Positions 21,050 to 55,700 of a DNA stretch of 64,000 nucleotides are shown piece after piece. A model generated the notes under the pieces. That model made no database searches. It was not told the DNA's origin and saw nothing but the letters and a program-made list of their open reading frames with translations. Position 1 is the stretch's first letter, and the number at the start of each line of letters is the position of its first letter. This stretch comes from Hericium rajendrae. Lineage: Eukaryota > Basidiomycota > Agaricomycetes > Russulales > Hericiaceae. The stretch spans positions 1,798,001 through 1,862,000 of the forward strand of contig CM065885.1 in the NCBI GenBank assembly GCA_033439255.1, read 5' to 3'. A program made the translations under genes and the position numbers.

Positions 21050-22663
21050 ATTATGATATTGTCGACCCTGTTTTTTTCACTGCTGGCACGTGTCTTTGCG
21101 AGTTTCTTCTTATGTTGGCCAAAATTTGTCCGACACTGTACAGCATACTTTTGTGTTCCTTACAGTCTGTGTCGTCGGCATTAAGACGTTGCAATGAGCG
21201 AGGTTTAAAAGCATTAAGTTTGAACAGGCGATGGAAGACGGATTGTGTGAGACAAAAAAAGAACAGCACTAACATTTTTTTTTGTATAGTAGATGAAGGT
21301 AAGTGCTAAGGACCGACATCCTGTAGTGACCGAGTAGGGACTCAGGCTACACACAAACAACAAAGGCTGACCTGCTCAAGAGCATCTGAAAAAATGGAAT
21401 TTTATATAGCTGCAGGCTAAGTTATGGGTGCTATTATTGAACTATCAGAGCTATGTAGTTTGCTTATCCAGCTATGTAGAGCTATGAGAGCTTCCATAGC
21501 TTCTATAGCTACCTGTGTCAGTTATATAGTCTACCATAGCTTCCATAGACAGCAGTTTGAAATATATAGTACTATTGTACCTAGTAAGATGAGCTATGAG
21601 TACTATTAGTACTACTAGTACTATGTCAAGTCACCCAGGTACTTTGGTGCAAAATATTCAAAGTCAAAATTTCTTATATTCAGTATGATTCTACTACAGA
21701 ACAAGTACACTACAAGTATAAATACTGCAGGCATGCACACCATGTACAGGTAGGGCCACACACAGGCACAAGCACACTGATGGACTGCGACAAGGCGCAC
21801 ACACCCACGAGGCACGGCGCAGCGCGGCAGTCGTGTACGACGCGGCAGTCGGGCGCGAAGAGCGGCGGGCCCGTGTGAGAGGCGCACGGGGGGGAGAGCG
21901 AGGGGGGGCGAGATGTCGGTGGGCGGCTAGAGGTGCCGCACTCGGGGTAGCGGGGCGTGCGTGCGAGGCATGGAGGCGAGGCGCGAGGCGTCGAAGGCGG
22001 CGCGAAGTGGGGACCGGCAGTGGGCCCATGTGTAGGCGCGGGAGGCGGGCGTGCGGGGAATGCGCGACGTGGCAGAGCCCGTGCGCGACGTGGCAGGCCC
22101 GCGCGCCGGAGGCGAGGTACTGGGGACGTGCGATGCGCGGCGGGCGTGTGCGAGACGTCGGCAGGCCGCGCGAGGCCCGCGCGAGACTCGCGGGGCGGCG
22201 CAAGGCATGCGGTGGGCGCACGAGGCCCGTGGGGTGTGCGCGCCGCGGGCTCCGCGCGCGAGGCTCCTGGCAGCGCGCTCGCAGTCCGTTCGTGGCTGCG
22301 GTCGTGCGTGCGCGGACCTGACCATACACAGGGGCGCGGACGTGGTCGCGGAGCCGTGTCCGTCCATCCGTGCGCTGGCGCGGACGTGCGGGGCTGCCCG
22401 TGCACCTATGGGGCCGTGCGCGGGCAAACCGGTGCGGGTGCGGGTGCACTGGCAGCCGTATGCGGGCGTTGCGGCAATGCACGGCGCCGATGATGTGTCG
22501 GGTGCGGCGGGGGCGCGAGGATGGCGACGGGATGTGGTGGGGTGTGGAAATGACGGCGGCGGCGGCGGCGGGGACGAGGACGGCGACGGGGTGAGCAGGA
22601 CGGTGGGCGCGGGCTGTTGGAGCCACGCGGCGATGCGCAGGAGGCGGAGCGAGGCGCGCTGAA

Positions 22664-22693
22664 CGAGTCTCGTTGCCGTGGCAACGAGACTCG
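22664..22693. promoter_or_regulatory. HTE-1 X-box-like palindrome
   Basis: 30-bp perfect palindrome with 14-bp arms around a central GT; the inner part GTTGCC-GT-GGCAAC matches the form of RFX X-box sites. Also present in HTE-A and HTE-D. Confidence 0.6.
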
Positions 22694-22813
22694 AGGATGT
22701 CGTCGTCCGCGTTATCGAGGGAATGGGGCAGGTGTGGTGTGGTGAGCGTCGGCGCGGGTATGGTAGCGTGTCGTGCGGAGGTGGAGGTGACTGGCTAGGC
22801 AGAGAAATAAAAG

Positions 22814-22856
22814 AAAACGAGTATCACTCGTGCAGAGCACGAGCGATACTCGTTTT
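22814..22856. other. HTE-1 hairpin 1
   Basis: 20-bp arms around the loop AGA with one A-C mismatch. The core is GAGTATCNCTCG, shared with the other full copies. Confidence 0.85.
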
Positions 22857-23014
22857 ATTAGCACGGTACAACGATAAGAGAGACCGTGCTTACTTACCTG
22901 AATGCCCTCAGCCCGGCTCCTAACCCTTCTGACTGCAAAGCGATGCGAACCGTCGAGTGCGGAGAGAGGAAGTACGGGTTGGAGACGAGAGAGGAGGGAG
23001 TGATGAGGTGGAAA

Positions 23015-23050
23015 GCGCAAGTCGCGCTTCAGCCAGGACTCGACTTGCGC
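23015..23050. other. HTE-1 hairpin 2
   Basis: 10-bp arms GCGCAAGTCG and CGACTTGCGC around a 16-nt loop containing CTTCAGCCA. The arm sequence differs from the other copies but pairing is kept. Confidence 0.8.
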
Positions 23051-23289
23051 GGTCAAGTTCTTTCGGGCACAACAAATCGAATAAATCGATTTTAAATCAG
23101 AAAAAAAGACTGGTATTATAGAATGTACATAAAACAATATCGCATGAGAAACGATCGTAGATAATGTACCGTAGGCCACTGGCCAGCGAAGACAACTTAC
23201 TCGGATCTGGCAGTTAGCCTCTGTTGCGGAGCCCGGCAACCTTCGGCCCGGCGCTCGGCAGCCACGTTTCGGGCCCCGCTCGCAACGCC

Positions 23290-23298
23290 TATATAAGG
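23290..23298 (+). promoter_or_regulatory. HTE-1 TATA box
   Basis: TATATAAGG followed by GCATGCGCGATGCGCG and a CT-rich stretch. The same arrangement occurs in HTE-A, B and D. Confidence 0.75.
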
Positions 23299-24946
23299 CA
23301 TGCGCGATGCGCGTCCTCTCTCTCTCTCTAACCCCCACCATCTTCCGCTTTTATGGCCTCTTGCTCTTGTCTTCTAAGCCTTTAAGGTAAAGTCTCTTAT
23401 ATTTCTTATGTTTCTTATGTTTCTAATACTAATGTTCTTATGTTTCTAGTTAATTTCGCTTTTTTGTAGTCACAGTAGGCCTTGTAAGATAAGTTTTCTT
23501 ATCTTTATTATTCTCTTAGCCTGATGTTCTTATATCTGTAGTTCATTTTCGCTTTTTGTAGTCTTGGTATATTTTTCCTGTTATCTTATCTCTTCTATTC
23601 TTTTATCTTATCTTTTATCTTATCTTAACATCTTATCTTATCTCATTGGTGTTTTCTCTATCATAAATTTGTATTAAATTATATTTATATAATGACTTAT
23701 ATAGTTTGTATTATTGTTATAAAATACCTAATAAGATTTATATTGCTTTGCTCTTCTTGATGGTTTGATTGTGCTATAACATTAAGTATAAATTTGAGAT
23801 AATTGAGATAAATAAAATATAGTGTAGAAAGTTAGCATAGTCTTGATAATCTGAGATAACATAACTAGTATTCATACAGTCTGTAGTGTGAATAGTATAT
23901 ATATCACATATAGTTAGTATAGCTCTCATAGCTACTTTATACTATGATAGCTATAATAGCTATCATAGCTCTTTATAGCTGTCCTATTTGGCTCTATAGC
24001 TTTACATAGATGACCTCATAGCTATATAGAGGTATGAAGAAAAGGAGACAGCTATGGAGCTATGAGAACTATGTAATCAATATAGTCATATATAGCTCTA
24101 ACAGTTTTCTCAGATGAGGCGATCGACGATGAAGAGAGTCAAGAGCAATTGAGAGAGGGAAGCGCAAGGCGGAGGGACTTAAAGGGCACTGGCGACTGAC
24201 AGGAGGTAAATCCTATAGAGTTGCAAAGTGGTTAAGCTAAGGTCTAAGGGACTCAGCTCAACTGGTTAAATACAGGAGGATGCACAGCTACGAGTCGTAT
24301 CTAAGGTGATGGTAGTAACTGTGCATTGCACAGCATCGTACTGCACATGATGGGGATGAAACATGATGGAAGGGTAGATAGGGTAGCACTGCAATGATCA
24401 TGATGGAAATGGATAGTGGATTGAGGCAGCGCGATAGCGTCCATGCGTGCATGTAGATATGGTTAAATAAAGGAAGTAGAGCAATGGGGCATCGACCATG
24501 GTGGGGATGTTGAAGGGAGTGATGTCAAGTTAAGAAATGAAATGTACAGTTCTTAACACTAACCCCTTTCTATGATGCATTGACCCGACGTGTCCTAGAA
24601 GTCCCACCCAGGGAGGCCCCAGCTCGGGTCACGCCGGTCTTTCTCGTCCCTCCAGCCGTGTCGAGTTCCACGGACCTCCTCCCTTGAGGGGCGAGGTGGG
24701 TTCTTCCACTCCACCTCCCACAGTCAGTCTGACCAGTACTTCCACTTCTCGAGCAATTTGTCGATGGCAGCATCGGTGCTGCGAAGGTGGTTGCGGAGGA
24801 GCTCGCAGTGCTCACGGAAGACTCTGGCCATGGGATCGAGGCATTGGTCGACAGGGGGAATTGAATCCCAAGCCTCGTGGCGGGTGTCCGCAGTGGACAG
24901 TTGGTTGGGCAGGAGCGGGTGGTGGTCCTCCTGAGCGCCGAGCTCT

Positions 24947-25402: not shown

Positions 25403-25530
25403 TGTTGAGAATAGATGAGAAAGGTGAGGGCGAGAGTGAGGAGGCTGAGGATGAAGTTGAGGGCAAGGAGTGTGGTGGTAGTAGTATCCAGTTTGGATGC
25501 TGGTTTGGAAAGGACCTGTGAGGCTCCCTT

Positions 25531-28500: not shown

Positions 28501-28809
28501 TTTTTTCTCAAAGACATCACGAAATTCCCAGTATTCCTGTGGGATCATTTGGTCTAAAGTCTGGGTCTTCTGCTTACTAGCAAAGGCAGCAGCAAGTTCT
28601 TGGGCATTGGTCACAGTGCGATTAATGCAGAATACCATGTCATCAGGTAATGATGGATCAAGAATACAATTGAAATCATCATCAGGGTTGGAGATGCCAA
28701 GACCCTTGATGGACCAGTCTATGGGGATTGGCATGATGGATTCATCAGCATCTTCTGTGAAATCTGGGTGATGTACCGATGGTAACCATGTGGTGTTTCG
28801 AATTTGCAT
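25531..28809 (-). other. Gy-B pol region (fossil)
   Basis: Reverse transcriptase (YMDDILVF near 27.97 kb), RNase H, the integrase zinc-binding and catalytic core, a GPF-type module and a chromodomain (YLIKWKGFPDAEMSW near 25.7 kb) are recognisable in order. It looks broken in places. Family: Ty3/gypsy chromovirus, distinct from the G family. Confidence 0.85.
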
Positions 28810-29630: not shown

Positions 29631-31053
29631 ATAGGCAGTGAGCTATTTTTCTGGCCGCTTCCCACCAGGGTCGTTGGGCAAATGGTAGTGTATCCATGTT
29701 ATTGACTCGGACTGGTCCGTTGGTTACATGGCACTTATGTTGGCATCGTTCTAGTACAAGCTGGTCTTGTTCCCAATTGATGTTGGGATTGTGTTCTCAC
29801 AGCCAGTCGGTTCCTAAGATGATGTCATCTTGTCCTAAATCTGTGATGTAAAATCATCTGAAAAATCCCAAATTTATATAGCCACCAGCCACAATTATCT
29901 ATGCTATAGGAAGCTATATACATGACTTATACAGATATATAGATCTATGGTAGCTATATAGACTATATAGCCCTATATGCCATCTATGTAGGCCTATATA
30001 GCTAGCCTATATAGCTAGTTAGCACTGCTATAGAAGCTATGGACAAGTTCCTACTTGCTATAGAGTCTATATAACCTATGTTACCTATATCATCTGGTAA
30101 ATGCAAGTCATATGCTATGGCATCTGTGAGATATACAGGAACTATACTCATTATCCAGGATGTAGAGATGATATAGGTCAGACAACAGTATAGATCAAGT
30201 CAATTTATATTGTTTTCATTCGTAACTAATTACAGAGGTAAAACAAATATAACTAAGTAATATAGAGTGCCCATGCCCATGCCCGTTGAGTACGCAGGCC
30301 CGTAGAGTGCAGAGGTCATGCATGAGGGGCTGTGCGTGGGCGCGAACACGAAGGCGTGCAGCATACTGGGCGGGGGCAGGATGCGCGAGCTGCAGGGATG
30401 GCGCATGGGGCAAGATATTGGGCACGGGCATGGTGCATTGCACAAGCTGGGTGTCGTCATGTGCATGGGGCGTTGTGGCACACGCTCGAGGTGTTGCAGC
30501 ATGCATGCGGTGCGCTGGCCCACACACAGGGTGTTGTCGGCTGCACAGAGCGTTGGTGCGGGTGGGCGGGGCATTATGCGTGCGTGCGTGGCATTGACCG
30601 GACGTGTGCACGTGTGCACATGAGTGCAGAAGTTGCACGCGGGAGCGGAAAGAGTTGCACGCAGGAGCGGGGGGAGTTGCATGTGGGAGCAGGGGGAGTT
30701 GCGCGTGTGTCAGGCGTGGAGCTGCATCCGAGGCGGGGCACACGTGTTCAAGGGCGAGGCAGGCAGGCGCAGAGTTGCACGCACAGGCACAGCATTCCAC
30801 ATGCATGCAGGGTGTGCCGGCTGTGACGGTGAGCGTGCGGGGTTCTGCACATGCCCGGGGCATCGTCGCACATGCGCAGGGCGTTGAGCTGGTGCGCACA
30901 CGGTGTTGTGCATGCGCGCGGGGTGCTGAACTGGCGCACGGGGTGTTGAGCTGGCCTGCATGATGTTGAGCAAGCACAGGGCGAGCGAGCGGAGCATGGT
31001 GGATGAGCGCGGGGGGGCTGTAGACACTGGCATTGTGAATGGGATGGCGTTCA

Positions 31054-31079
31054 AGTCCCGTTGCCATGGCAACAGGACT
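31054..31079. promoter_or_regulatory. HTE-A X-box-like palindrome
   Basis: The perfect 14-mer GTTGCCATGGCAAC inside a 26-bp palindrome with one mismatch pair. It is the ideal RFX X-box form. Confidence 0.65.
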
Positions 31080-31391
31080 CTGCGACATGTGCGTATGCAT
31101 GGACGGGGAGGGCACGGGCGGAGAGACGTGGCCTGTGCACAGATGACGTGGCATGGTGCATGCACACACGCATGCATGCCGTGGCTGCTCACACGTTGGT
31201 GCATGCACGAAGAGGGCGGGAGGCCGTGCGCGAGGTCGGAGGCATGTGCGGGGATCGTAGGCCATTGGAGTCGGGCACGGGGGGTATAGGCTACGTGTGG
31301 GGCGCATACAGGGCATAGGTGGGGTAAGGAAGGTGTGGCGGGAGTGCGGAACAGGTGGCGGGGTCATCGAGGGTTGAGGGAACAAAAACAT

Positions 31392-31426
31392 AGAGAGTAT
31401 CGCTCAATAAACGAGCGATACTCTCT
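31392..31426. other. HTE-A hairpin 1
   Basis: 14-bp perfect arms AGAGAGTATCGCTC and GAGCGATACTCTCT, loop AATAAAC. Confidence 0.85.
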
Positions 31427-31622
31427 GTTTTAGTTCAGAATCAACGAAGATAAGTGGATTTGCTTACCTAGCAACCCTCTCTTACTACTTCACTCTCCAG
31501 ACCTCTGGAGTTGACGACCTCGGGATGAATAAAGGAGAAGGGAGAGAGGAAACGGAAGACAGAGGGACGAGGGACGATGAAGGAGTGAGAAAAGGAAGAA
31601 GTATTGTGTCGAAGTCGACGCG

Positions 31623-31648
31623 CGTTCGGTGCTTTCAGCCACCGAACG
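31623..31648. other. HTE-A hairpin 2
   Basis: 9-bp arms CGTTCGGTG and CACCGAACG, loop CTTTCAGC. Confidence 0.8.
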
Positions 31649-33120
31649 AGCGAGTCAAAGTTTCTCGCGACATAGAAAACAGAATAAAATACTGATAAAT
31701 ATGAAATAAAACACTGTATCATATACCATCAATATAAACAGATTGAATGAGCTGAGTATCTATATAATCATCTGAAAAATCTGAAATCTACATAGCTGCC
31801 AGCCAATGCTATGTCTGGTTTCATAGTGCTATGGCTGCTATGTAGTTGGGCCACACAGCTATACAGGACTATGGTAGCTATCATAGCTATCATAGTCATG
31901 GGTGATGGGTACATAGTATTACATAGTAATAGGACATTACTATGCCTGCTATGTAACTTATGTATTTTTAGTCTCCCTCTATGTATCCTATAGATGCTAT
32001 GTTCCATACAGAGCTTCAGTCTGCTATAATATCTACAGTTGGTGTAAAGTTTATGATTTCGATATCACACTCAAAATAGGTCAAACTTGATTATATTAGA
32101 CTACTACTACAATCGAGTATACTAAGTTACACGCACGCCCGCGAGGTATGACAAGGCGTGCACGCGCAAGGGTGCGACTGGTGTGCGCGACACTGCACGT
32201 GAGGTGCAATGGTGCGCGTGAAGGTGGTGGGAGTGCACGTGCTGCGGGATGATAGGGCAGGCTTGCGCTATGCGGCAGGCCTGCACGTGGGAGATGCGGG
32301 AACGTGGAGTTCATGTGCATGGCGCGGGGACCGTTCGGGAGGCGCGTGGAACGTGCGCGTGGCGCGGGGACCGTTCGGGAGGCACGGGCGACGTGCGCGA
32401 GGCGCGGATGACGTGCGCGAGGTGCGGACAATGTGCGCGAGGCGCGAGCAACGTGCGCGAGGCGAGGGCGATGTGCGCGAGGCGAGGGCGACCCGCACGA
32501 GGCGCGAGGGACCCGCACGAGGCGTCGGCGGCGGCGGGCCCGTGCGCGACACTGCGACCTGCACGTGGGAGACGCGAGGCATGCGAGGATGCATGCGCGA
32601 AGCGTCGGGGGCAGCGGGCCTGGGACGAGGCGTGCACGAGGCGCCGGGCTGCCGCGGGTCTGTGTGCGAGGCACTGGGTGGTCGCGGGCTCGTGGGCGAT
32701 GTGTCAGGCCTGCGTGCGCGAGACACAGCGGCGGCGGGCCCATGCACGAGGCACTGGACGACATGCACGGGGCATTGGGCAGCGTGCGCGAGGCGCAGCA
32801 GGCGGCTGGTCCACACGCGAGGGACAAGGGACGTGACGCTGCCACGGGCCCGTGCGCAGTGCGGCAGGCGTCCGCGCGAGGCGCGATGGCATAGATGGTC
32901 ACGCGGATGGAGAGGGCCACGCGCGACGTGCGTGTGCTGGTGTGCCCATTCCGGGTCGTGGACGATCGGGCGCACTCCGCTGATGGTGGTCATTGGAGGT
33001 GGCACGCCGGGCGCTAGTGACGTGACGGCAAGGCGGCGAGGTCGATGGAGGGCAAGGTGATGCAGGAGGGGCAGCAGTCGGAGGCGAGGGGGGATGAGGG
33101 CATGGGAGGATGAAAGAAAT

Positions 33121-33152
33121 CGAGAGTATCGCTCGTTCGAGCGATACTCTCG
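33121..33152. other. HTE-B hairpin 1
   Basis: 15-bp perfect arms, CGAGAGTATCGCTCG and its complement, separated by TT. Confidence 0.85.
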
Positions 33153-33340
33153 ACGTTAGCATGAACAAATGGAATAAAAGTCTTTTTTACTCACCTTGGA
33201 GGCCCTCTGCATCCGCCTGAGTCCCTCCGGCATGCGGTTCGACGAGTCAGAAGGACAGGAGGAGGGTGGAGGGAGGACAGTGAACAGTGGAGATGGTGGA
33301 GATAGCGAGAGAGTCAGAGAGACGAACTTCGATGCGCGTC

Positions 33341-33359
33341 TCGGTGCTTCAGCCACCGA
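33341..33359. other. HTE-B hairpin 2
   Basis: 6-bp arms TCGGTG and CACCGA around CTTCAGC. Short, but in the same place as in the other copies. Confidence 0.65.
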
Positions 33360-33595
33360 ACGAGCGAAGCTACGTTCCTCGACCCACTACAAATCAGGAA
33401 AAATCACATAAATTGAGAGAAAAACATCATAGCTATAAATTGTATATAAAATTCAAATGAATGAGAAATATAAGTATCTACTGTACATGAAGCTCACAGG
33501 GAGCCAAGTCCATCTAGTGAAGTCTGGCGCCCAGTCTCGACGTGACGCTCGGCAAGCGCCCAGCAGCCGCGAATCCCGGCTTCACCCAGGATTCC

Positions 33596-33604
33596 TATAT
33601 AAAG
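33596..33604 (+). promoter_or_regulatory. HTE-B TATA box
   Basis: TATATAAAG followed by GCGCGATGCGCG. Just upstream, GAATCC and GGATTC can pair. Confidence 0.7.
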
Positions 33605-34644
33605 CTCGCGCGATGCGCGTTGCCTCTTGCTCTTTAACCCCCACTGTCTCTTGCCACGTCGACGCCTTCGTCGACGTCCTTTGCTCGCTCGTCGTTGTCT
33701 TTTGCTCGCTCGTCGTTGTCTTTTGCTCGCTCGTTGTTATTTCTCGCTCGTCGTTGCTGTCTCTAAGGTAATCTTCTAATTGCTGGTCTCTTATTGGTTA
33801 TACTAATACTACTTTAAGTTAGTTTTTTAGAGTTCGCTTTTTGTTACTTTGGTAAGTTCTTATGTGTTATCTTTATCTTTCAAGACTAATGTTTTCTTAT
33901 CTTTTCTTACTGAGTTTCTTATCTTATCTTATCTTCTTGTATAATCTTATCTTACTTATCTTATCATATCTTCTTGTATTATCATATCTCACTTATTTTC
34001 TTACTTATATTTTTGCTTTTCAGTTAGTAGTAGTGTTTGTAATACCAATATAATCTTGATGCATTGAAATACTTTATATCTGTGTGATTATATGTTATAA
34101 ATTTTGATATGATTGTAGAAAGAATTTACAGTTCTAATAAATTTTATTGCTTTAATATATATAGCAGGTTTACATATTAAATATCAGATATATGAGACAC
34201 ATATTGAATGTAGGATATGTGAGACATATATTATACATAGGTTATGTGAGACACATATTGAATATAGGATATGTAAGACACATAAGCCTTATAGCTTTGA
34301 TAGATACTGATAGCTTTTATAGCTAGTCATACTATTATAGCTACATAATCAGCTGTCATAGCTATGATAGCACTCCATAGCACTCCATAGCATCACTTTT
34401 GAGCCTCATAGCACTACATAGCATCACCCTTTGGCTATGTGGGCTATACAATAAAGGGCGATACTATGAAGCTAGGAGATCTATGTAGACTTTATAGAGC
34501 TATGTACCACTGGCAAATTTTTCAGATGATGTAGCATACAAGACCAAACAGCAGAGTCAAGGTAGTCACATCTGCCACTTAGTCCTCTGATGTGGCACTC
34601 GGCCATGTCCGGCAGCCACGAATCTTGGCTTCGCCCGGGATTCA

Positions 34645-34653
34645 TATATAAGG
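34645..34653 (+). promoter_or_regulatory. HTE-A TATA box
   Basis: TATATAAGG, placed after the HTE-B insertion. The leader below it carries diverged CTCGTCGTT-type repeats, and an AAG-GTGTGT junction lies near 34867. Confidence 0.7.
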
Positions 34654-34968
34654 CTCGCGTGACGCGCGTTTCCTCTTGCTCTTTAACCTCATCATCTGCC
34701 ACGTCAGCGCACTCGTTGTCGCTCGTTCGTCGCTCATCGTCATTCATTCGTCGCTCATCGTTGTTCTTTGCTCACTCATTATCATTCTTTGCTCGCTCGT
34801 CGTTGTTCCTTCTCACTCATCATTTGTTGCTTGCTTGTTATTATCTCTCACTTTTTATCTTTACTAAGGTGTGTTGATATCATCATTAGTCCCTTATGTT
34901 TTCTACTAATGTTGCTCTAGTTAGATAAGTCTAATGCTTGTACTAAACTATTTTCTTCACTTGATAGA

Positions 34969-35072
34969 TTTTCGCTTTTTGAAAGACTTGGTAAGTCTTC
35001 AGTTTAGTTTTTTAATAATATAATGTCTTATTTATATATCAGTTGTTTTAATCTATTAGATTTTCGCTTTTT
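34969..35072 (+). repeat. HTE-A paired TTTTCGCTTTTT segments
   Basis: Two copies of TTTTCGCTTTTT (34969-34980 and 35061-35072). Each is preceded by TAGA and followed by ACTTG; the first is followed directly by GTAAGTC. They resemble repeated short exons between TAG acceptors and GTAAG donors. Equivalent segments: HTE-1 23454-23465 and 23546-23557, HTE-B 33833-33842, HTE-D 52938-52949 and 53031-53042. Confidence 0.55.
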
Positions 35073-36011
35073 ATCTTACTTGTATATCTTTATATTCTTT
35101 ATAATGATCTTGACTTTTTTCTTACACTTTTTTGGTATATTTATCATTAATGTATAATCAATTGTTATAGTTATAGTTATAAAGTATATAATCAATAAAA
35201 AGTCTTGCTATCTCATTCATTATTGTTGTGATCTTTTGTGATTGGTGCTTATTGTAAGTGATGATTGAATATGAACTTGTATAGGTTCTACTCATACTAT
35301 GAATTTGAATAATTAAGAAATTATCATGTTCTAGTCTATGAAGAATTTGTAAACTATTTTGCTAATATAGTTATGAGATCATTCATAGCATCTGTAGTGA
35401 ATATAGTTTATATAGCTATTCTTATAGCTCTATAGCTATGTCTTGTAGCTCTATAGTTATCATAGCTATCTCTTATAGCTCTATAGCTATCATAGCACTC
35501 TATAGCTATCCTAAGTAGCTTTATAGCACTCTATAGATGACCCCCTTCTATGGCCATCTATAGAATAGGTGGCATAGCTATGGCCCTATGACATTTATAT
35601 AATCTATATAGAGCTCTATAGCCATGTGGATTTTCTCAGATGATCGTGTCTTCTCTGTGTGCATTGCATTGCCGGGTCCCTTGATTACAATGCGTAAGAC
35701 ACAGTAATGGGTAATTTGACCAAGGGCATTTTCCAAGTCATCGACATTTTTGACTGGGATAGGTTTCGTGAGGGGAATTGTCTTGATATGATACTGGTTG
35801 ACAATTCTCCAGTTGATAAGAATGCCTGTGGCTCCACTGTCCACCAGGCCTTTAATGGCGACGTTTTGTTGTTTTCCTAAAATCGTGATGATAATGCAGA
35901 TGGATGGAGAACCATTATATTTCAATGAGGATATGTGTAAATTGGCCAGCCAATTTGGTAAATAAGAGTCCATTGAAACATCATCATCTGGCATCGAGAG
36001 TATATCAAAAC

Positions 36012-41600: not shown

Positions 41601-42935
41601 CGTTTTACAAAGCACGTCTCCTTCACTCCTTGTAAAGAGACCATTACCAGTGATGGCACAGTCGACATCCTTTTTGACAGGATTTATCGGAACTACGGCC
41701 TCTGGGAACGCCTCATCTCTGATCGTGGCCCACAGTATGCAGGCAAAGTCATGCGTGGCGTCTTTGACAAACTTGGTATCAAGTCCTCCCTCAGCACCGC
41801 CTATCATCCACAGACCGACGGCGAGTCAGAACGCGTCAATCAAGAACTCGAGCAGTTCCTTCGTACCTTCTGCAACTACCGCCAGGATGATTGGGTCCAA
41901 TGGCTCCCTTACGCTGAGTTCTCGCACAACCACCGTATCCACAGCGCCACTAACCGAGCTCCATTTGAAATGCTCCTCGGCTATATTCCCACTGCCATCC
42001 CCACTGTCAACCCCACATCGTCTACACCCGCCGTCGAGGATCGTTTCCATCACCTCGAACAACTTCGCACTGAGGTCCAGGCCAGCCTTCAAACAGCTGC
42101 TGATCTCATGAAGCGCAACAACCAGGACCATATGCACGACACCATCCACTTCCAGGTTGGTGACAAGGTCTGGCTCGATGGCAAGAACATCAAAACCACG
42201 CGACCCAAAGCTAAGCTTGCTGATCGACGCCTGGGACCTTTTGAAATCACTGACGTCCTGGGCCCAGTCTCTTATCGACTGAAGCTACCGCCCACCTGGC
42301 GTATCCACCCGGTGTTCCACACGTCCCTGTTGTCCCCTTACAAGGAAACCGATGCTCATGGTCCCAACTTCCCTGCACCACCACCTGACCTTGTGGAGGG
42401 CGAGGAAGAGTACGAAGTTGAGTCTGTCCTCGATGCTCGTCTCACCCGGAACAAACGCGGCATTGAATATCTCGTCAAATGGGCAGGCTACCCTGATTCG
42501 GAAAATCAGTGGCTTTCACGTACCTCCCTTTCCAATGCCCATGGTGCAATCACCGACTTCTACACCCGCCATCCACATGCACTCAAGGCTCCCAACCTTC
42601 GTGGACTCATCTACCTCGACCCTGTCCATGCTCATCACGCACTCCAGGCGAAAGTGCGTCTTAGGGAGGGGGTGATGTCACGGATCGCTCCATTTCTCTC
42701 CGCCTTCTTCTCTGCCATCAAGGCATCGCGTCGGTCATGTGCTCCAGCAGCCCCATCACATGTTCACTTCCACATGACCTGGGGCTATCCTTCACCCATG
42801 CCCTTGTTCCCCTTTGGGACACCCTATTGTTCTCCCTCCCATTGTTCTCCTTTTGGCCACCATTGTTCTCACTCTATTGTTCGACCCATTATGGTGTCCA
42901 TTGTTCTTTTCCCATTGTCGTCCCAGTACTTATAG
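38673..42935 (+). CDS. G3 pol: protease-RT-RNase H-integrase-chromodomain
   Basis: Frame of 1420 residues, beginning just after gag in another frame. Aspartic protease LLDSGAEG (~63-70); RT with the catalytic YMDDIL (~516); RNase H; integrase zinc-binding HHCC segment starting at LHHDTPMAGH (~884) and ending CATCQATK; GPFEITDVLGPVSYRL module; chromodomain with EYLVKWAGYPDSENQWL (~1260). The frame ends inside the 3' LTR, a feature shared in general form with G1 and G4. Typical length for a chromovirus pol. Confidence 0.9.
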   Translation: MGGKKHFFDPSNRFSVLSDPCEQSYPSSLRMSAITPNRQTPSITLQAKIITAPIKKQIDAEALLDSGAEGIIMHPEFAKKHQFPLKKLPKPFPVRNVDNSENIMGWVRYSVNQNIRIYAKDLTSFHEETAEFYLVDIGDYDIILGTDWLQEHNPEIDWVSRRVDMTRCPPSCTLNKPPVKNLSTRTERRHSAPRPPVLSAAAVLLPLPCPPPLLPLPPPFVAAPLPKYVIPARRVQGVRLRRIHLSKVPARLFTEDDDPRPNVDDDWVEEGLRLAGVLPDWDTPPPPDDDPDYQHTIRIRRSFTNAQKLAERVATRVAEKSFAEMVPPQYQDFQPVFDEESSHRLPERRPWDHAIDLKDGFEPRSCKVYPMAPTEQEDLDSFLDDHVKKGYIRPSKSPMASPFFFIKKKDGKLRPVQDYRTLNKGTIKNEYPLPLISELVDKLKGAKVFSKMDVRWGYNNVRIKEGDEWKAAFKTNRGLFEPLVMFFGLTNSPATFQGMMNELFKDLIDTGKVVIYMDDILIFTETLEEHRDLVRKVLQCLQDNDLFLKPEKCSFEQPSVEFLGLIVSHNTLAMDPVKVAGIAEWPAPRNVKDVQSFVGFGNFYRRFIQDFSKVARPMFDLTKKDHPWAWSAECQHAFEALKAAFTSSPVLIMPDPSKPYLVEVDASDDATGGILSQRGEDEQWHPVAYISKAFTAPERNYDIYDKELLAIIRALEAWRHYLEGSPHTVEIWTDHKNLEYFKSAQKLSRRQARWALFLTRFDFTLIHKPGIHHRPDAMSRRPDHREGVDDDNSDRVLLDPKYFQIRATRPAAVKSIGNADLRQRIRNAKTKDIEVVQALDVILNNGPRSLVKNLQEWNYEDGLILFRGKVYIPADKDLRRDIVKLHHDTPMAGHPGRYKTYELLSRNYWWPGMSVFVRDYVDGCATCQATKVQNHRPHVETIPNAIPTRPFQDITSDFIVKLPECQGYDSINVVVDRFTKHVSFTPCKETITSDGTVDILFDRIYRNYGLWERLISDRGPQYAGKVMRGVFDKLGIKSSLSTAYHPQTDGESERVNQELEQFLRTFCNYRQDDWVQWLPYAEFSHNHRIHSATNRAPFEMLLGYIPTAIPTVNPTSSTPAVEDRFHHLEQLRTEVQASLQTAADLMKRNNQDHMHDTIHFQVGDKVWLDGKNIKTTRPKAKLADRRLGPFEITDVLGPVSYRLKLPPTWRIHPVFHTSLLSPYKETDAHGPNFPAPPPDLVEGEEEYEVESVLDARLTRNKRGIEYLVKWAGYPDSENQWLSRTSLSNAHGAITDFYTRHPHALKAPNLRGLIYLDPVHAHHALQAKVRLREGVMSRIAPFLSAFFSAIKASRRSCAPAAPSHVHFHMTWGYPSPMPLFPFGTPYCSPSHCSPFGHHCSHSIVRPIMVSIVLFPLSSQYL

Positions 42936-45213: not shown

Positions 45214-45223
45214 AGCTTAACCA
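45214..45223 (-). other. Gy-B primer-binding site, self-priming type
   Basis: Minus-strand TGGTTAAGCT starts 2 nt inside the LTR and is complementary over 10 nt to AGCTTAACCA within the LTR. Tf1 of fission yeast uses an 11-nt match of this kind to prime from its own 5' end. Confidence 0.6.
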
Positions 45224-45225
45224 AG

Positions 45226-45744
45226 TGCTAAGGACCGACGTCCTGTAGTGACCAAGTAGGGACTCAGGCTACACACAAACAACAAAGGCTGACCTGCTCA
45301 AGAGGCGATCAACGATGAAGAGAGTCGAGAGCGATTGAGAGAGGGAAGTGCAAGGCAGAGGGACTTAAAGGGCACTGGCGACTGACAGGAGGTAAATCCT
45401 ATAGAGTTGCAAAGTGGTTAAGCTGAGGTCTAAGGGACTCAGCTCAACTGGTTAAATACAGGAGGATGCACAGCTACGAGTCGTATCTAAGGTGATGGTA
45501 GTAACTGTGCATTGCACAGCATCATACTGCACATGATGGGGATGAAACATGATGGAGGGGTAGATAGGGTAGCACTGCAACGATCATGATGGAAATGGAT
45601 AGTGGATTGAGGCAGCGCGATAGCGTCCATGTGTGCATGTAGATATGGTTAAATAAAGGAAGTAGAGCAACGGGGCATCGACCATGGTGGGGATGTCGAA
45701 GGGAGTGATGTCAAGTTAAGAAATGAAACGTACGGTTCTTAACA
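45226..45744 (-). repeat. Gy-B 5' LTR
   Basis: 519 bp. It has the uninterrupted sequence CTCAAGAGGCGATC at the HTE-1 insertion point. The minus-strand transcript segment AGCTTAACCA (45424-45415) is complementary to the primer-binding site beside the LTR. A TATTTAA box lies about 30 nt upstream of that segment. Confidence 0.92.
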
Positions 45745-45908
45745 GTAAGATTCAGAGAAATACGGAAAGTCAAGAAGTTAGCAAAAGAAATAGAGGTAGT
45801 CTGTACAGGTAAAGGGTAGAGAAGGTTAAATATATATGATACAAAATCATGCAGAAAGACAAGTTGCGGCTAGACAAAGCGGTGGAAATTTAAAAGATGG
45901 CGAGAACA

Positions 45909-47291: not shown

Positions 47292-48522
47292 GATTCGCAG
47301 AAGCGGTAAAAAGTGAAAATCAGGGTAGAAGAAAGCTAGGATGAGCAAGTGGGAAATCCTATTGATCGATTAGCAGTGCTCTCGGGCTTTTATACATCGC
47401 ATGACTTACTTTCTCCTGCAGCAAGTCAACATTATAATGCCATAGGGGTTGGCATTTCCGCAGCCGATTCAGACGTCCATTTCGTGATGACGATGATCGC
47501 ACCGTGGATGTTCAGATGGAGTGTGTGTCTCAATCAAGTTTCATTCAGTATGTCAGAATTTTTGGGCCTGGAAACAATCGCAAGATTGTCCGCTATGTCG
47601 ATCTGCCCCAGTTAACAGCGGACTTGGAAGCAAACTGAATGTCGGACCGTGAGTCATTCTTCTTTGCAGATATAGGCGGAAGCAGACAAGGTTAAAATTG
47701 TGTTGTGGAAAGTTCACAGCACAATGTCCTTGACCCTGATAGTCGGTGCGGTCGGAAGGCGGTTCCATTTGCTAGTGTCTGGAGACAATGTCAAGTCTGT
47801 TCCCCAGTGCGATGGTCTGCCCCGGATAATGGCAGACTCGGAAGCAAACTGATTTCTGCACCGCAATCCATTCTTGTTCATGGTTCGGCAGACGCGGAAG
47901 CAAACGAGGTAAAATTTGACAATACAATGTTCTCTACTGTGGCGATCAGCAGGATGGAAAGATGATTTCTGTTGGTAGTCTCACCAGAGACTTTCACGTC
48001 AGTTTCTAGAAGCAGACCGGCATTACTGGGTGAGTCACCACTAAAATCAAGATCCATTATGTCCTGCTCACCCTCGCACAAAAAAAAAGTGCGACTGGCT
48101 CTGAGTCGTCAGATCGTCAAGCGCGCAAACACGATTATGTCGGAGCGGGTTTTGCAGTTTCCACACAGACGGTAAAGTGCCACAGCCAATGTGTCGGCTG
48201 CCGAAACCATGTGTCAGGAGGTCTGAAAACAGTTGAATGGCGCGGTTGCTTCATCCATCGTCGAAATGTGTCTTTGTTGTCATCGGCGGTGTCTTATGGA
48301 GAGAATCGGTCTGTGAACCGTAAGGCATCACGTGACAGCGGCTTCGCACGATGTCTGTCTGTCTGTGATGGAACATGACCCATCGACGTGGTAATCCAAC
48401 ATTCTGTGGACTGCACAAATGGTATATAATGCCTCCCATTTTTGCTAGCAGGTTTCAACAGAAGTTCAACCGCCTTCGCACCCTCATTTGCTAGCAATGT
48501 CATTTGTCTAAACTCTTGATGA
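47292..48522. other. intergenic, with diverged internal repeats
   Basis: Between two divergent genes, so it probably holds both promoters. No gene recognised. A diverged direct repeat occupies about 47595-48000 (see separate entry). 48100-48480 shows nothing clear. Confidence 0.4.
47595..48000. repeat. diverged ~200-bp direct repeat
   Basis: Two tandem segments (about 47595-47800 and 47810-48000) share the order TCTGCCCC, GCGGAC or GCAGAC, GGAAGCAAACTGA, CATTCTT, GCGGAAGC, TTAAAAT or GTAAAAT, and ACAATGT. Identity looks like 60-65 percent by eye. Possibly old promoter-region duplication. Confidence 0.5.
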
Positions 48523-49262: not shown

Positions 49263-50055
49263 CATCTGAGAAAACTAAATTCCATATAGCTGCAGGTTAC
49301 ATTATAGGTGCTATCATTGAGCTATGAGAGCTATGAAGTTTGCTCATTCAGCTATGTAGAGTTATGAGAGCTATGAGAGCTTCCATAGCTTCCATAGCTG
49401 GTAGTGTCAGCTATATGATGCTATCATAGCTTCCATAGTTAGCAGTTTGAAATACATAGCATTATCATACTTAGTCAGATGAGCTATGATTGCTATGAGT
49501 GCTACATCAAGTCAGGTAGGTATGAAAGATGCCAGGTCAAAATCAATTATATTCAATGTTATAACTACGACAAGTATACTACGTTACGCGCGACATACAC
49601 AGGCGGGGCTGGCATGCACGAGAGCAGGGCACGCGACAAGGCGCGCATGTGCACGAGGGACGTGGCTGGTGTGCACGACACGGCAGTTCTGCCTGCGAGA
49701 CGCAATGGCTGTGTGCGAAGTGCCAGGCCCGTGCACGAGTGCGCATGCTGGCGGGGCCCGTGCGCAATAGCACGGGCTGCACGCAGGAAATGCAGAGCGA
49801 GGCCCGTGCGCGAGGCACTGGGCTGCCGCGGCTCATGCGGGGCTGTAGGTTTCGTGCGCGAGGTGATGGGGCCCGTGCACAGGGTGCAATGCTGCTGCGG
49901 GTGCATGTGTGAGGCGCGGGGAGTGCGTACAAGGGGCAACAGGCGTGGGCGCGTATGCGAGGCACGAAGGATGCGCGAGGAGCACGGCGGGCGTATTTGA
50001 GGTGTGGGGAGTGTGTGCGAGGGTGTGTGAGGCGGGACCGGATGCCAGGCCCGTG
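49263..50055 (+). mobile_element. HTE-C: left part of a hairpin TIR element
   Basis: Starts CATCTGAGAAAACTAAATTCC inside a host exon, followed by the left subterminal repeats (49300-49510), the shared short AT segment, and part of the GC block with an R-rich artefactual frame. The G4 LTR begins at 50056. No hairpins, promoter or right end are found on the other side of G4, so the right part is lost. Confidence 0.8.
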
Positions 50056-50478
50056 TGTCAAGACTCGGTTGTAGACAGCAGAGAACCACCCAAGTCACCA
50101 GCGATGATGAGAGCGAGAGAGCAGAGAGCAACTAGCAGCGCAGTGACCTGTATTGGAGGTACAGTACGGTACAGACGAAATGGACAATCTAGGGAAATAG
50201 GCGGGCGACAGGGAGCCTATAAGTACTGGGACGACAATGGGAAAAGAACAATGGACACCATAATGGGTCGAACAATAGAGTGAGAACAATGGTGGCCAAA
50301 AGGAGAACAATGGGAGGGAGAACAATAGGATGTCCCAAAGGGGAACAAGGGCATGGGTGAAGGATAGCCCCAGGTCATGTGAGGAAGTGAACATGTGATG
50401 GGGCTGCTGGAGCACATGACCGACGCGATGCCTTGATGGCAGAGAAGAAGGCGGAGAGAAATGGAGTGATCCGTGACA
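50056..50478 (-). repeat. G4 3' LTR
   Basis: 423-bp G-family LTR in reverse orientation. It borders truncated HTE-C. Confidence 0.92.
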
Positions 50479-52157
50479 TCACCCCCTCTCTAAGACGCAC
50501 TTTCGCCTGGAGTGCATGATGAGCATGGACGGGGTTGAGGTAGATGAGTCCACGAAGATTGAGAGCCTTGAGTGCATGCGGATGGCAGGTGTAGAAGTCA
50601 GTGATTGCACCATGGGCATTGGAAAGGGAGGTACGTGAAAGCCACTGATTTTCTGAATCAGGGTAGCCTGCCCATTTGACGAGATATTCAATGCCGCGTT
50701 TGTTCCGGGTGAGACGAGCATCGAGGACAGACTCAACTTCATACTCTTCCTCGCCCTCCACAAGGTCAGGTGGTGGTGCAGGGAAGTTGGGACCATGAGC
50801 ATCAGTTTCCTTGTAAGGGGACAACAGGGACGTGTGGAACACTGGGTGGATATGCCAGGTGGGCGGTAGCTTCAGTCGATAAGAGACTGGGCCCACATCT
50901 GAAAAATCTGATTTTTATATAGCAAAGGGTCAAACTATGGGTTCTATAGGTGAGCTATGGAGTCTATGGCTTTGACTTGTCAAGCTATATAGAGCTATGA
51001 CAGCTATCATAGCCTCCATAGCAGGCAGTGTAAAATATATAGCCTCTATAGCTAGTAGTATTAGATATATAGAGCTATGCTACTTAGTAAGGGGAGCTAT
51101 GGCTCCTATGATTACTATACTGGCTATGTTCAATGAGCTAGACACCGAAGAAATTTCTTAGATTTAAAGAAAAAGACATTACAAGTAGTCTACTATTTTA
51201 CTAAAGTATCTAAGTTCCTAATTAGAGACCTCGCATGCATGCACAAGGGCACGCGCAGACGACGTGGTGCCCGTCATCGGAACCATCATGCCCGCACCGT
51301 CGCTGACATGCGTGGCTCCACGTGCCATCGCCATGCCGTTGCCGGTGTGCGGGGCCTTGCGCGTGCAGATGGGACTGCCCGCAGCTGCCCATGCGCGCGG
51401 TTGCCGACGTGCATGGGGCATGCGTGGCCTCGGACGCGCAGACGGCGCCGTGCGTGGCTATCTCACCATGCGTGCTTACGTGCGCTGGCGCGATCATCTG
51501 TGGCCGTATGCAGGGGAGCCGTGCGTGACAGCCCGCATACTGGCAGGGCCATGCATGGCTGCCCGTGCTATGCGTGCGTGGCGCAGTCCTCCATGGCCAT
51601 GTGCAGGCAGCACGCGGCCGCGAGAAAGCGAGGGCGTGGCGGCGGGCGACCACCCGTGCATTGGCAAGGCTGGGCGCGGTGATGCTCGCCGTGCGTGTGT
51701 GTGCGTACGTGGTGACGCAGTCGTCTGCGACCGTGCGAGGGCAGGGCGGGGTGAGGGCAGGGCGGGGCATGCGTGACAGCCCGCAAGCCAGCGGGGCCAT
51801 GCACGGCGCAAGGCGGTGGACGGCCGCGCCAGCGCACGCATTCGCGTGCTGGCAGCCGCGGACGACTCGGCCAGCGTGCGCATGCGCGGGGCTACTCGTG
51901 GCTGCGGGCGACCTCAATGGCCGCGGACTGTCCCGCCAGCCCATGCACAGCGTGCGCAGGCGCGGATGCACTGGCGATCGTCCGCGGCCGTGCGTGCGGA
52001 CTTGCCAGCGCGTGTGGCCCAAGCACGCTGGTGGGGCCACGCACATGCATCCTGCTGGCAGTGGGAGGCGAGGGCGAGTCGGGGGTGGGAGTGGAAGTGG
52101 GACCGGGGCTTGTGGGTTGGTGTTGCAGTAGAGGGCGAGCACGTCGTACGACGTTTA

Positions 52158-52191
52158 GTCGGGCCTCGTTGCCGTGGCAATGAGACCCGAC
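52158..52191. promoter_or_regulatory. HTE-D X-box-like palindrome
   Basis: 34-bp palindrome centred on GT with one mismatch and one G-T pair; the inner part is TTGCC-GT-GGCAA. Confidence 0.6.
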
Positions 52192-52288
52192 GTCGGCGTC
52201 GACGACGGCATTGTCGAGGGAGTGGGAAAGGGTGGTGTCGTAGGTGTGGCCGCGGGGTGTGAAGGGCAGGGCGTGGTCGCGAAAAGAC

Positions 52289-52320
52289 ACGAGTATCGTT
52301 CGAAAACGAACGATACTCGT
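52289..52320. other. HTE-D hairpin 1
   Basis: 14-bp perfect arms ACGAGTATCGTTCG and CGAACGATACTCGT, loop AAAA. Confidence 0.85.
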
Positions 52321-52505
52321 ATGATTAGCACAAAAACAAAAAAAAGACGACTATTGTACTTATCTTAGTTCCCTCGGCATCCCTGCGAGACCTCCCGACC
52401 GTCGAATGACACCGTGCGTTGCGTATAGAAAGAGGTTGGGGCATGGGAGGGAGAGGATGGACTCGGAGTGAAAGGTGAACGAAGTTGAACGCACCAAGTC
52501 GTGCA

Positions 52506-52529
52506 TCGAGTGCCACAGCAAGCACTCGA
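52506..52529. other. HTE-D hairpin 2
   Basis: 8-bp perfect arms TCGAGTGC and GCACTCGA, loop CACAGCAA. Confidence 0.8.
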
Positions 52530-52764
52530 CTCGTGCGGCTGGCGGTTTCGAGCTCAACAACTCAAATAAAATCTTTAAAAATCCAAATAAAACACCGAAC
52601 GTATAACTTTGTTGTATCTAGACTATGAATGAGCCAGGCATGTATCTACTCTACTCTACATTCTCGAGCAACCGATGTACCTTAGTGAAGTCTGCATCAG
52701 TAGCCTCTGCCGCGGCGCCCGGCAACCGCCGGCCAGCTGTAATTCGGGCTCCAACACGCTCGCC

Positions 52765-52773
52765 TATATAAGG
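52765..52773 (+). promoter_or_regulatory. HTE-D TATA box
   Basis: TATATAAGG followed by GCATGCGCGATGCGCG, as in HTE-1. Confidence 0.75.
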
Positions 52774-55700
52774 CATGCGCGATGCGCGTCCTCTTTCTCT
52801 TTCGTACCACTACCATCTCTCATCTCTCGTCTTTCGCCATTCTCTCCTCTCTTCAACTCTTTATATCCAGTAAGTCCTTATGTTGTTACATTGTTGACTT
52901 ATACTTATGCTTATTATTATCTTTGTAGACTTGAATATTTTCGCTTTTTCTTCTCTTTGTGGTAAGTCTTATATTTTGTTCTGTCTTTCTATTGTTTACT
53001 TACAATAAGGTGTTGACTTTTAAGGTTTCATTTTCGCTTTTTATTGTCTTTGAGGAGTAAGTCCTTTTTGTTGTATCTTTTATCTAATCTAATCTAACTT
53101 ATGTTTGTAAATATATATAGATTTACTAACTTTATACTATAATGTAGTTCTCTTGTATATTAGTGTCTTTTGTATATTAGTGTTTAATAAAATGATATGT
53201 TTTTAAAATTTCGATGTTTTGTTTGTTTAAAATATTCTGACTATAAGCATATAAAACAATTTTTTATAGTATTATTAGGTAATATAATACTTACAGGTGA
53301 CATAGAGTAGATAGCAATCCTAATAGGCTAGATATAATATGATAATGAGCATATAGAATATAACTGACATAGCTGACATAGCTAATATAGCTATCATAGC
53401 TATGCCTTATGCTTTGGTAGCTATCAAAGCTATCATAGCTAGACATAGCAATCCTATTTGACTACATAGCTTGCCATAGACTGCTCTTCAGCTATGGGGG
53501 CCCTATGTATAAAAGGGGATTGCTATGGAACTATGACTTCTATATAAACAATATAGGGCAACATAGCACTGGTACATTTTTCAGATGCAGGACATCAGTG
53601 ATTTCAAAAGGTCCCAGGCGTCGATCAGCAAGCTTAGCTTTGGGTCGTGTGGTTTTGATGTTCTTGCCATCAAGCCAGACCTTGTCACCAACCTGGAAGT
53701 GGATGGTGTCGTGCATATGGTCCTGGTTGTTGCGCTTCATGAAATCAGCAGCTGTTTGAAGGCTGGCCTGGACCTCAGTGCGAAGTTGTTCGAGGTGACA
53801 GAAACGATCCTCGACGGCGGGTGTAGACGATGTGGGGTTGACAGTGGGGATGGCAGTGGGAATATAGCTGAGGAGCATTTCAAATGGAGCTCGGTTAGTG
53901 GCGCTGTGGATACAGTGGTTGTGCGAGAACTCAGTGTAAGGGAGCCATTGGACCCAATCATCCTGACGGTAGTTGCAGAAGGTACGAAGGAACTGCTCGA
54001 GTTCTTGGTTGACGCGTTCTGACTCGCCGTCGGTCTGTGGATGATAGGCGGTGCTGAGGGAGGACTTGATACCAAGTTTGTTAAAGACGCCACGCATGAC
54101 TTTGCCTGCATACTGTGGGCCACGATCAGAGATGAGGCGTTCCCAGAGGCCGTAGTTCCGATAAATCCTGTCAAAAAGGATGTCGACTGTGCCATCACTG
54201 ATAATGGTCTCTTTACAAGGAGTGAAGGAGACGTGCTTTGTAAAATGGTCGACGACCACATTGATGGAGTCATAGCCTTGGCATTCTGGGAGTTTGACGA
54301 TGAAGTCCGAGGTAATGTCTTGGAAAGGACAGGTAGGGATGGCATTGGGAATTGTTTCAACGTGAGGGCAGTGATTTTGAACCTTGGTGGCCTGGCAGGT
54401 AGCACAGCCATCAACATAATCATGAATGAAGACAGACATACCGGGCCACCAGTAGTTGCGACTGAGGAGCTCATAGGTCTTGTAGTGTCCTGGGTGACCA
54501 GCCATGGGGGTGTCATGATGCAGCTTGATGATGTCCCGACAAAGATCCTTGTCAGCAGGGATGTAGACTTTGCCACGAAAGAGGATGAGGCCATCCTCAT
54601 AGTTCCATTCTTGGAGGTTCTTGACGAGGGAGCGAGGACCATTGTTCAGGATCACATCAAGGGCTTGAACAACCTCAATGTCCTTGGTCTTGGCATTGCG
54701 AATGCGTTGGCAAAGATCAGCATTGCCAATGGACTTGACAGCAGCTGGATGTGTAGCACGGATCTGGAAGTACTTGGGGTCGAGGAGGACACGATCGGAG
54801 TTGTCGTCGTCCACCCCCTCTCTATGGTCAGGTCGTCTCGACATGGCATCTGGCCGGTGATGAATACCGGGTTTGTGGATCAGGGTGAAGTCGAAACGAG
54901 TGAGGAAGAGAGCCCAGCGAGCCTGACGATGACTCAGCTTTTGGGCAGACTTGAAGTATTCCAGGTTCTTATGGTCGGTCCAGATCTCCACCGTATGGGG
55001 AGAACCTTCCAGGTAGTGGCGCCAGGCTTCGAGGGCACGGATGATGGCCAGGAGTTCCTTGTCATAGATGTCGTAGTTGCGTTCGGGGGCGGTGAAGGCC
55101 TTGGAGATGTAAGCAACAGGGTGCCATTGCTCGTCCTCCCCACGCTGGGATAGGATACCTCCTGTGGCATAGTCTGAGGCATCGACCTCAACCAGGTAGG
55201 GTTTGGACGGGTCAGGCATGATAAGGACTGGGGACGAGGTGAACGCAGCTTTAAGAGCCTCAAAGGCATGTTGACATTCAGCAGACCAGGCCCAAGGATG
55301 GTCTTTCTTGGTAAGGTCAAACATGGGACGAGCGACTTTGGAGAAGTCCTGGATAAAGCGTCAATAGAAGTTGCCAAAGCCAACAAAGGACTGGACGTCC
55401 TTGACATTACGGGGGGCAGGCCATTCAGCAATGCCTGCAACCTTGACGGGGTCCATGGCGAGCATGTTGTGGGAGACGATGAGACCGAGGAACTCAACAG
55501 AGGGCTGCTCGAAAGAGCACTTCTCTGGTTTGAGGAAGAGGTCATTGTCCTGGAGGCGTTGAAGGACCTTGCGCACAAGGTCGCGATGTTCTTCGAGGGT
55601 TTCGGTGAAAATGAGGATATCGTCCATGTAGATGACGACTTTGCCCGTATCAATGAGATCCTTGAAAAGTTCATTCATCATTCCTTGGAACGTGGCAGGG

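Follow-up and report, generated by a model that had tools for sequence, protein, structure and literature searches.

The 64,000-nucleotide stretch of Hericium rajendrae DNA analysed here (the window; contig CM065885.1 of assembly GCA_033439255.1, positions 1,798,001–1,862,000) contains five loci that share the terminal motif CATCTGARAAA and constitute the family of transposon-like elements described in this report. The first-pass annotation of the window had listed five copies; five loci do share the ends, but they amount to four complete copies and one 5′ part (49263–50055). The locus at 29855–35642 is indeed one element, but it is interrupted by copy 3 at 31769–34528, and copy 4 ends at 53587 rather than 53586. 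The copies are as follows.

21383–24116, plus strand: copy 1, complete, 2734 bp, with both ends; sits in a repeat; target-site duplication AG
29855–35642, plus strand: copy 2, complete, 3026 bp without the nested copy 3, with both ends; target-site duplication AT; host is a Ty3-type protease frame
31769–34528, plus strand: copy 3, complete, 2760 bp, nested in copy 2, with both ends; target-site duplication AT
50896–53587, plus strand: copy 4, complete, 2692 bp, nested in a Ty3 retrotransposon, with both ends; target-site duplication CA
49263–50055, plus strand: copy 5, of which the 5′ part remains, truncated by a Ty3 retrotransposon that begins at 50055/50056

Exact matches to CATCTGARAAA occur at nine sites in the 64 kb and 9/9 of these are element ends in the right orientation, which confirms the shared ends of the first-pass annotation; allowing up to one mismatch gave 13 matches in the window against 3.39 expected. 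The inverted ends measure 11 bp and are common to the four complete elements and the 5′ part. Each of the four complete copies is flanked by a 2-bp target-site duplication, and the sequence as it would have been before insertion was identified for two of them: the empty site of copy 1 is an uninterrupted sequence at 45280–45325, and those of copy 4 lie in two sister retrotransposon copies, near 42260 and 19875. When the flanks of copy 2 are joined with a single AT, the retrotransposon frame becomes continuous; that this host frame encodes a protease is our own reading of a motif. The four complete copies are precise insertions with a 2-bp duplication. The earlier proposal of a mobile family moved by a protein made elsewhere is supported by these duplications (4/4), by the two cases with empty sites and the continuous host frame of a third, and by the Pfam scan, which placed no domain above the cut-off in 11 interior frames, all in the GC-rich half.

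The repeat that hosts copy 1 and its empty sister (45223–45748) are 97.6% identical over an 82-bp stretch and 96.3% over a 454-column stretch. The Ty3 retrotransposon that hosts copy 4 (50055–59836) has long terminal repeats (LTRs) that are 97.9% identical. Because these host-repeat and LTR identities lie at 96–98%, they bound the insertion ages of copies 1 and 4; the dating covers these two. The complete elements themselves are 48.4–56.0% identical in global alignments of the six pairs, for which 18 pairs from three block-shuffled sets provide a baseline with a mean of 44.1% and a maximum of 49.5%. Since the host repeats are 96–98% identical yet the elements only 48–56%, we read copies 1 and 4 as recent arrivals from lineages long separated and not as the decayed copies of one burst. 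The same Ty3 retrotransposon sits in copy 5, and its 5-bp flanks differ by eye; for this reason its arrival there probably involved deletion or recombination, for example with loss of the right half of copy 5.

Despite this divergence, the order of internal parts that the first-pass annotation had described is common to the copies. Ten-base words present in all four complete copies number ten, of which four are colinear, a count of colinear words that was zero in 40 block shuffles; of the four, two belong to the 5′ end, and the boxes described below and the 3′ array hold one each. When presence in at least three copies was required, 23 of 44 shared 10-mers were colinear (shuffled mean 0.47), as were 8 of 13 shared 12-mers, which fall in the 5′ end, the hairpin, the promoter core, the leader and the boxes.

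The outer parts of the elements and the first half of the interior comprise the following features.

21383–21682, plus strand: 5′ end and subterminal GCTAT/ATAGC array, copy 1; 9 motifs (control mean 2.4, maximum 10)
23817–24116, plus strand: 3′ subterminal array and end, copy 1; 14 motifs (control mean 3.7, maximum 12)
21762–22662, plus strand: GC block, copy 1; length and composition kept, sequence little
22661–22696, plus strand: palindrome, copy 1; RFX X-box-like core GTTGCCGTGGCAAC
31049–31084, plus strand: palindrome, copy 2; core GTTGCCATGGCAAC
52157–52192, plus strand: palindrome, copy 4; core GTTGCCGTGGCAAT

Similar subterminal arrays are present in the other copies, and their orientation is consistent, every complete copy having mainly GCTAT in its 5′ array and mainly ATAGC in its 3′ array. 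The predicted subterminal repeats were confirmed: at 6/8 ends the motif count lies above every one of 2000 Markov controls. The exceptions are both 5′ ends, in copies 1 and 2, and the GCTAT excess there is only slight in copy 1. The GC-rich block was likewise found, at about 1 kb and with a G-richer plus strand, and is among the least conserved parts of the element (41–53% identity). CpG dinucleotides in the block reach at least expectation in copies 1 and 3, and in copy 4 their ratio is near or over 1. The block of copy 2 (30284–31049) has a lower CpG ratio (0.76–1.03) than those of copies 1 and 3, and a higher CpA; this composition might reflect deamination of methylated CpG. We considered and rejected the block as a single tandem array, as copy 3 alone has a strong degenerate period of about 20 bp (z 5.3 at lag 20 and 7.0 at lag 40). 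The period is weaker in copies 1, 2 and 5 (z 2.8, 3.1 and 2.1 at lag 20), and in copy 4 lag 20 falls outside the seven best lags.

The palindrome core GTTGCCRTGGCAAY occurs in copies 1, 2 and 4, which bears out the claimed palindrome for three of the four complete copies; its absence from copy 3 and its variable distance to the hairpin are weighed below. Sites within two mismatches of GTTGCCATGGCAAC number three against 0.35 expected, and three sites were reached in 0/100 shuffles. As an RNA fold, the palindrome was equalled by 5/200, 0/200 and 29/200 shuffles in the three copies, the fold beating most shuffles in copies 1 and 4 and fewer in copy 2, and its covariation is weak (61/500 shuffles as high). 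The core fits the X-box motif as given in the available part of PMC4168999, and in budding yeast, according to the available part of PMC2873420, Crt1/RFX acts in the response to DNA damage. We treat binding of the palindrome by an RFX protein as a lead only.

Hairpin 1 was identified in all four complete copies, and in each its fold was matched by none of 200 shuffles.

22814–22856, unstranded: hairpin 1, copy 1; z −7.40, 0/200 shuffles as good
31392–31432, unstranded: hairpin 1, copy 2 (limits approximate); z −9.11, 0/200
33120–33153, unstranded: hairpin 1, copy 3; z −5.44, 0/200
52289–52320, unstranded: hairpin 1, copy 4; z −6.16, 0/200

Covariation was assessed on a MAFFT alignment made without structure, the structure being drawn from the same four sequences. 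Hairpin 1 has 96.8% of cells paired and a covariation score of 0.365, each reached by 0/500 shuffles; two of the five measures lie within the shuffles, and four sequences are few for such a test. The second hairpin has weak z values (−1.31, −3.53, −1.68 and −1.77 in copies 1–4), and only that of copy 2 clearly beats its shuffles. Of the two hairpins announced, the first is therefore strong in 4/4 complete copies but the second is not, and the description of the interior as structured sequence holds for the first hairpin and weakly for the palindrome and second hairpin.

The remaining part of the interior carries a promoter-like core and a set of short boxes.

23290–23314 (copy 1), with equivalents at 34645–34669, 33596–33620 and 52765–52789, plus strand: TATATAAGGC and GCGCGATGCGCGT, start-to-start distance 12 in 4/4
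23455–23464, plus strand: TTCGCTTTTT box; other starts at 23548, 33833, 34971, 35063, 52940 and 53033
22893–22899 (copy 1), with equivalents at 31463–31469, 33190–33196 and 52359–52365, minus strand: donor-like site, from sequence

The motif TATATAARGC has four sites on both strands of the window, one per complete copy, and in 4/4 it is followed by GCGYGAYGCGCGT, the GCG element, at the spacing listed above. As a sequence motif, the proposed TATA promoter thus stands in all four complete copies. The TTCGCTTTTT box occurs seven times on the plus strand and never on the minus strand of the window, and 7/7 are inside elements; the motif TTTTCGCTTTTT with one mismatch allowed adds a single site outside them, at 47308. 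The claim of TTCGCTTTTT segments holds in that all lie within elements and three copies have two boxes each, spaced 93, 92 and 93 bases apart, but copy 3 has only one.

Each of the seven boxes is preceded within 12 bases by TAG or AAG and followed within 32 bases by GTA[AT][GA]. This acceptor- and donor-like pattern was obtained at all seven boxes in 0/20000 Markov control sets, for a per-box control rate of 4.4%, and is also present at 77/1698 other positions of the same regions. The plus-strand introns implied by this pattern are 58–69 nt long in 6/7 cases and 99 nt in 1/7. Their boundaries and upstream donors were chosen by eye from signals, and the candidates are as follows.

23387–23449, plus strand: putative intron 1, copy 1, 63 nt
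23484–23541, plus strand: putative intron 2, copy 1, 58 nt
34869–34967, plus strand: further candidate intron, copy 2, 99 nt
34991–35059, plus strand: putative intron between the two boxes, copy 2, 69 nt
33768–33830, plus strand: putative intron, copy 3, 63 nt
52870–52928, plus strand: putative intron 1, copy 4, 59 nt
52962–53024, plus strand: putative intron 2, copy 4, 63 nt

On the minus strand, the donor-like site reads AGGTAAG or AGGTGAG in three copies and lies 65–73 bases from the hairpin motif. TGCTAAY is located 35–36 bases past this donor in copies 1, 3 and 4, where copy 2 has ACTAAA; the motif immediately precedes the hairpin. The distance from the minus-strand donor to the TATA motif is 397, 420, 406 and 406 in copies 1–4. 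The first AG beyond the hairpin on this strand follows after about 22, 102, 109 and 125 bases in copies 1–4, in the contexts TAG, TAG, TAG and GAG. A spliced transcription unit on the plus strand appears likely from these signals, and a corresponding one on the minus strand is possible.

Based on these features, we lean with modest confidence towards an old, non-autonomous, EnSpm/Plavaka-like (CMCT) cut-and-paste family whose interior, instead of being the wreck of a gene, would be a conserved non-coding transcription unit with a role in cis. A transposase made by a partner would recognise the CATCTGARAAA ends together with the subterminal GCTAT arrays, excise the element and reinsert it, the insertion and its 2-bp duplication being the observed part of this cycle. 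The TATA promoter, in the right half of the element, would fire rightwards into a pyrimidine-rich leader followed by short introns and TTCGCTTTTT mini-exons, and an opposite, leftward transcript would contain an intron with the hairpin just after its branch site. We suggest that this unit, the X-box-like palindrome and the GC block may jointly exert control over the element in cis, for instance by holding it in a transcribed, unsilenced state in which the transposase can reach it. Because the layout and several spacings are kept under near-saturated sequence divergence, our comparison suggests that the interior is under selection for a use to the element. On the usual view, a non-autonomous DNA transposon requires nothing beyond its ends. 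A non-coding interior kept in order despite near-total sequence turnover would, if true, imply selection at the level of the element and would open to direct testing whether RNA or a promoter acting in cis helps transposons to survive; the ends and landmarks given by the family also offer a handle for finding the partner transposase. A bolder version strikes us as distinctly unlikely: the lineage would have had no need of a protein of its own since the last common ancestor of the copies, and would have endured near-saturating divergence thanks to two divergent, spliced non-coding RNAs made from its interior. One of these RNAs would contain the conserved intronic hairpin and the other the TTCGCTTTTT mini-exons, and the element would require them for movement or for escape from silencing.

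Several observations weigh against a CMCT-like family with a cis-acting interior. The sample is the 64-kb window, with four complete copies in this single window. Copies 2 and 4 form the lowest pair, at 48.4%, and are the only pair inside the shuffled range. Copy 3 lacks the palindrome and has one TTCGCTTTTT box fewer, and the distance from palindrome to hairpin varies (148, 336 and 124 in copies 1, 2 and 4). In hairpin 1, the 5/16 pairs changed on both sides are reached by 27/500 shuffles, and the six further pair types by 141/500. The minus-strand donor of copy 4 is AGATAAG (ATAAG, not GTAAG), and only in copy 1 does an acceptor lie close behind the hairpin. The box test was devised after the pattern had been seen in the same sequences, so its figure overstates the case, and transcription of the interior is deduced from sequence signals only. 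No cut-and-paste transposase domain was found in the window pieces scanned and no relative was found, so that the superfamily is placed by ends and target-site duplications alone. In addition, the GC blocks carry minus-strand frames of 310, 391, 274 and 306 aa in copies 1–4, and BLASTP without composition correction between these frames gave E values down to 5e-9, a similarity that we provisionally attribute to their Pro/Ala/Arg/His-rich composition.

The alternative that survives best, which we consider unlikely though a serious contender, is that the copies are independent internal-deletion derivatives of different autonomous families, and that promoter, introns and hairpin are functionless leftovers of transposase-gene control. 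The TATA box, pyrimidine leader and short introns do resemble the 5′ part of a gene, and CACTA systems include deletion derivatives mobilised in trans (PMC2613891, available part). Four separate deletions would, however, need to produce the same layout and similar lengths (2692–3026 bp), and the alignment extends across the AT-rich 3′ region of every complete copy (236–294 columns per pair).

Comparison with known systems places the reading of a CMCT-like family in context. Miniature inverted-repeat transposable elements (MITEs) have no coding capacity, inverted ends and a target duplication. The present family resembles them in its inverted ends, its target duplication and its lack of a recognisable protein gene, but is far longer (2.7–3.0 kb) and keeps its interior layout at 48–56% identity. 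In Spm, a GC-rich control region lies behind the subterminal repeats; a literature search for support of this point found no paper. In CACTA elements, according to the available part of PMC2613891, the subterminal arrays bind a second transposon protein (TNPA in En/Spm). Like non-autonomous plant En/Spm elements as described there, the family combines short inverted ends, subterminal arrays as presumed cis-determinants and probable movement in trans, but it differs in having CATCTG rather than CACTA ends, a 2-bp rather than 3-bp target-site duplication, a GC block of about 1 kb and a conserved non-coding transcription-like unit.

CMCT lineages, in the available part of PMC12730594, mostly have CA..TG ends and target-site duplications of 2–5 bp, and the DDE domain of their transposase contains C(2)C and H(3-4)H motifs. 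The same source gives CATCA..TGATG ends with 2–3 bp for PlavakaB of Agaricomycotina, TGT..ACA with 2 bp for PlavakaA and CAC..GTG with 3 bp for fungal EnSpm. In the window, CA..TG ends and a 2-bp duplication occur in 4/4 complete copies. The family shares CATC..GATG ends, a 2-bp duplication (within the PlavakaB range) and a fungal host with PlavakaB; unlike it, all copies end in CATCT..AGATG, with T in place of A as the fifth base, the window scans found no transposase or TET/JBP gene, and an interior of such a layout is not part of PlavakaB as that portion of the source describes it. The CAT..ATG ends and 2-bp duplication depart from fungal EnSpm, and the ends also from the TGT..ACA of PlavakaA. 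The statement in the first-pass annotation that the family was not recognised is therefore too strong, as its ends, duplication size and subterminal repeats resemble those of EnSpm/Plavaka (CMCT) in this source. Since the ends and duplication fit the clade and the PlavakaB end is off by one base, we call the family CMCT-like on its sequence features: its members are non-autonomous elements whose conserved interior is unusual, and we stop short of assigning them to Plavaka.

A different or unknown superfamily with a 2-bp duplication could move the elements, making the CMCT label wrong; we find this quite improbable. It would accommodate the departure from the PlavakaB CATCA end and the lack of a transposase in our scans, and a DUF6589 gene of unknown function lies on the minus strand of the window. 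This gene, however, has an in-frame stop and no nearby CATCTGARAAA site even with one mismatch, and the CA..TG ends, variable 2-bp duplications and subterminal arrays all fit CMCT.

Coding capacity of the interior was the remaining point at issue. Two of the 11 frames scanned against Pfam had a match at E 0.03–0.04, far below the cut-off, and the AT-rich 3′ parts contain no frame of at least 150 aa wholly within an element. Compared with shuffles, the longest minus-strand frames of copies 1, 3, 4 and 5 are ordinary (63, 178, 57 and 196 of 300 as long). The minus-strand frame of copy 2 was matched by 5/300 and the plus-strand frame of copy 3 by 3/300; because these exceptional frames are on opposite strands, no frame is shared, in agreement with the earlier claim that the copies have no common reading frame. 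GC content by codon position is rather flat in the block (0.76/0.70/0.73 in copy 1, others similar), and the window's gag and pol frames have 0.55/0.45/0.54 and 0.54/0.34/0.48; on the shuffles and this comparison we rejected a coding GC block. A hidden gene, in which the minus-strand frames (274–391 aa, exceptional in copy 2, with a donor and branch-site-like motif upstream) would be spliced to a short first exon and encode a fast-evolving low-complexity protein, is highly improbable given the four ordinary minus-strand blocks, the opposite strand of copy 3's unusual frame, codon-position GC unlike gag or pol and the lack of a Pfam match above the cut-off.

Searches with parts of the elements gave no match in viral_contigs for the exact TATA/GCG core, the hairpin or the extended 5′ end, none in genome_contigs for the exact TATA/GCG core or 5′ end, none among phages for copy 1 and none among plasmids for copy 4 (one copy per search). 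As these collections consist of viral, bacterial and archaeal DNA, such negatives say little about fungi. In Rfam, positions 21000–54000 gave nothing above threshold; the two matches below it both lie in copy 1, within its 3′ subterminal array. Literature searches on Plavaka, on CACTA/MITE and on non-coding non-autonomous transposons returned no description of such an element among the matches listed, as far as the available parts of these sources go, and a search on CATCTGA with terminal inverted repeat found none.

Elsewhere in the window there are several copies of Ty3-type retrotransposons with chromodomains. The DUF6589 (PF20231) gene occupies 60514–62227 on the minus strand, in several frames as if multi-exon and with the one in-frame stop; its 374-aa stretch at 61106–62227 matches the family at E 8.2e-70. 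Two pieces upstream (62231–63290) gave no family above the cut-off, and a Ty3 LTR begins at 63333. The DUF6589 product was considered as the transposase of the family and set aside; its single-sequence structural model had a mean predicted local distance difference test (pLDDT) score of 35.5. A literature search on DUF6589 found no paper. At 6405–10338 (frames at 6573–10338), a NACHT frame is followed by a WD40-repeat frame whose units of about 129 bp are mutually some 87–92% identical; the pair resembles fungal NLR genes whose repeats were homogenised recently. A tandem direct repeat of about 82 bp, 78% identical, lies at 13842–14007.

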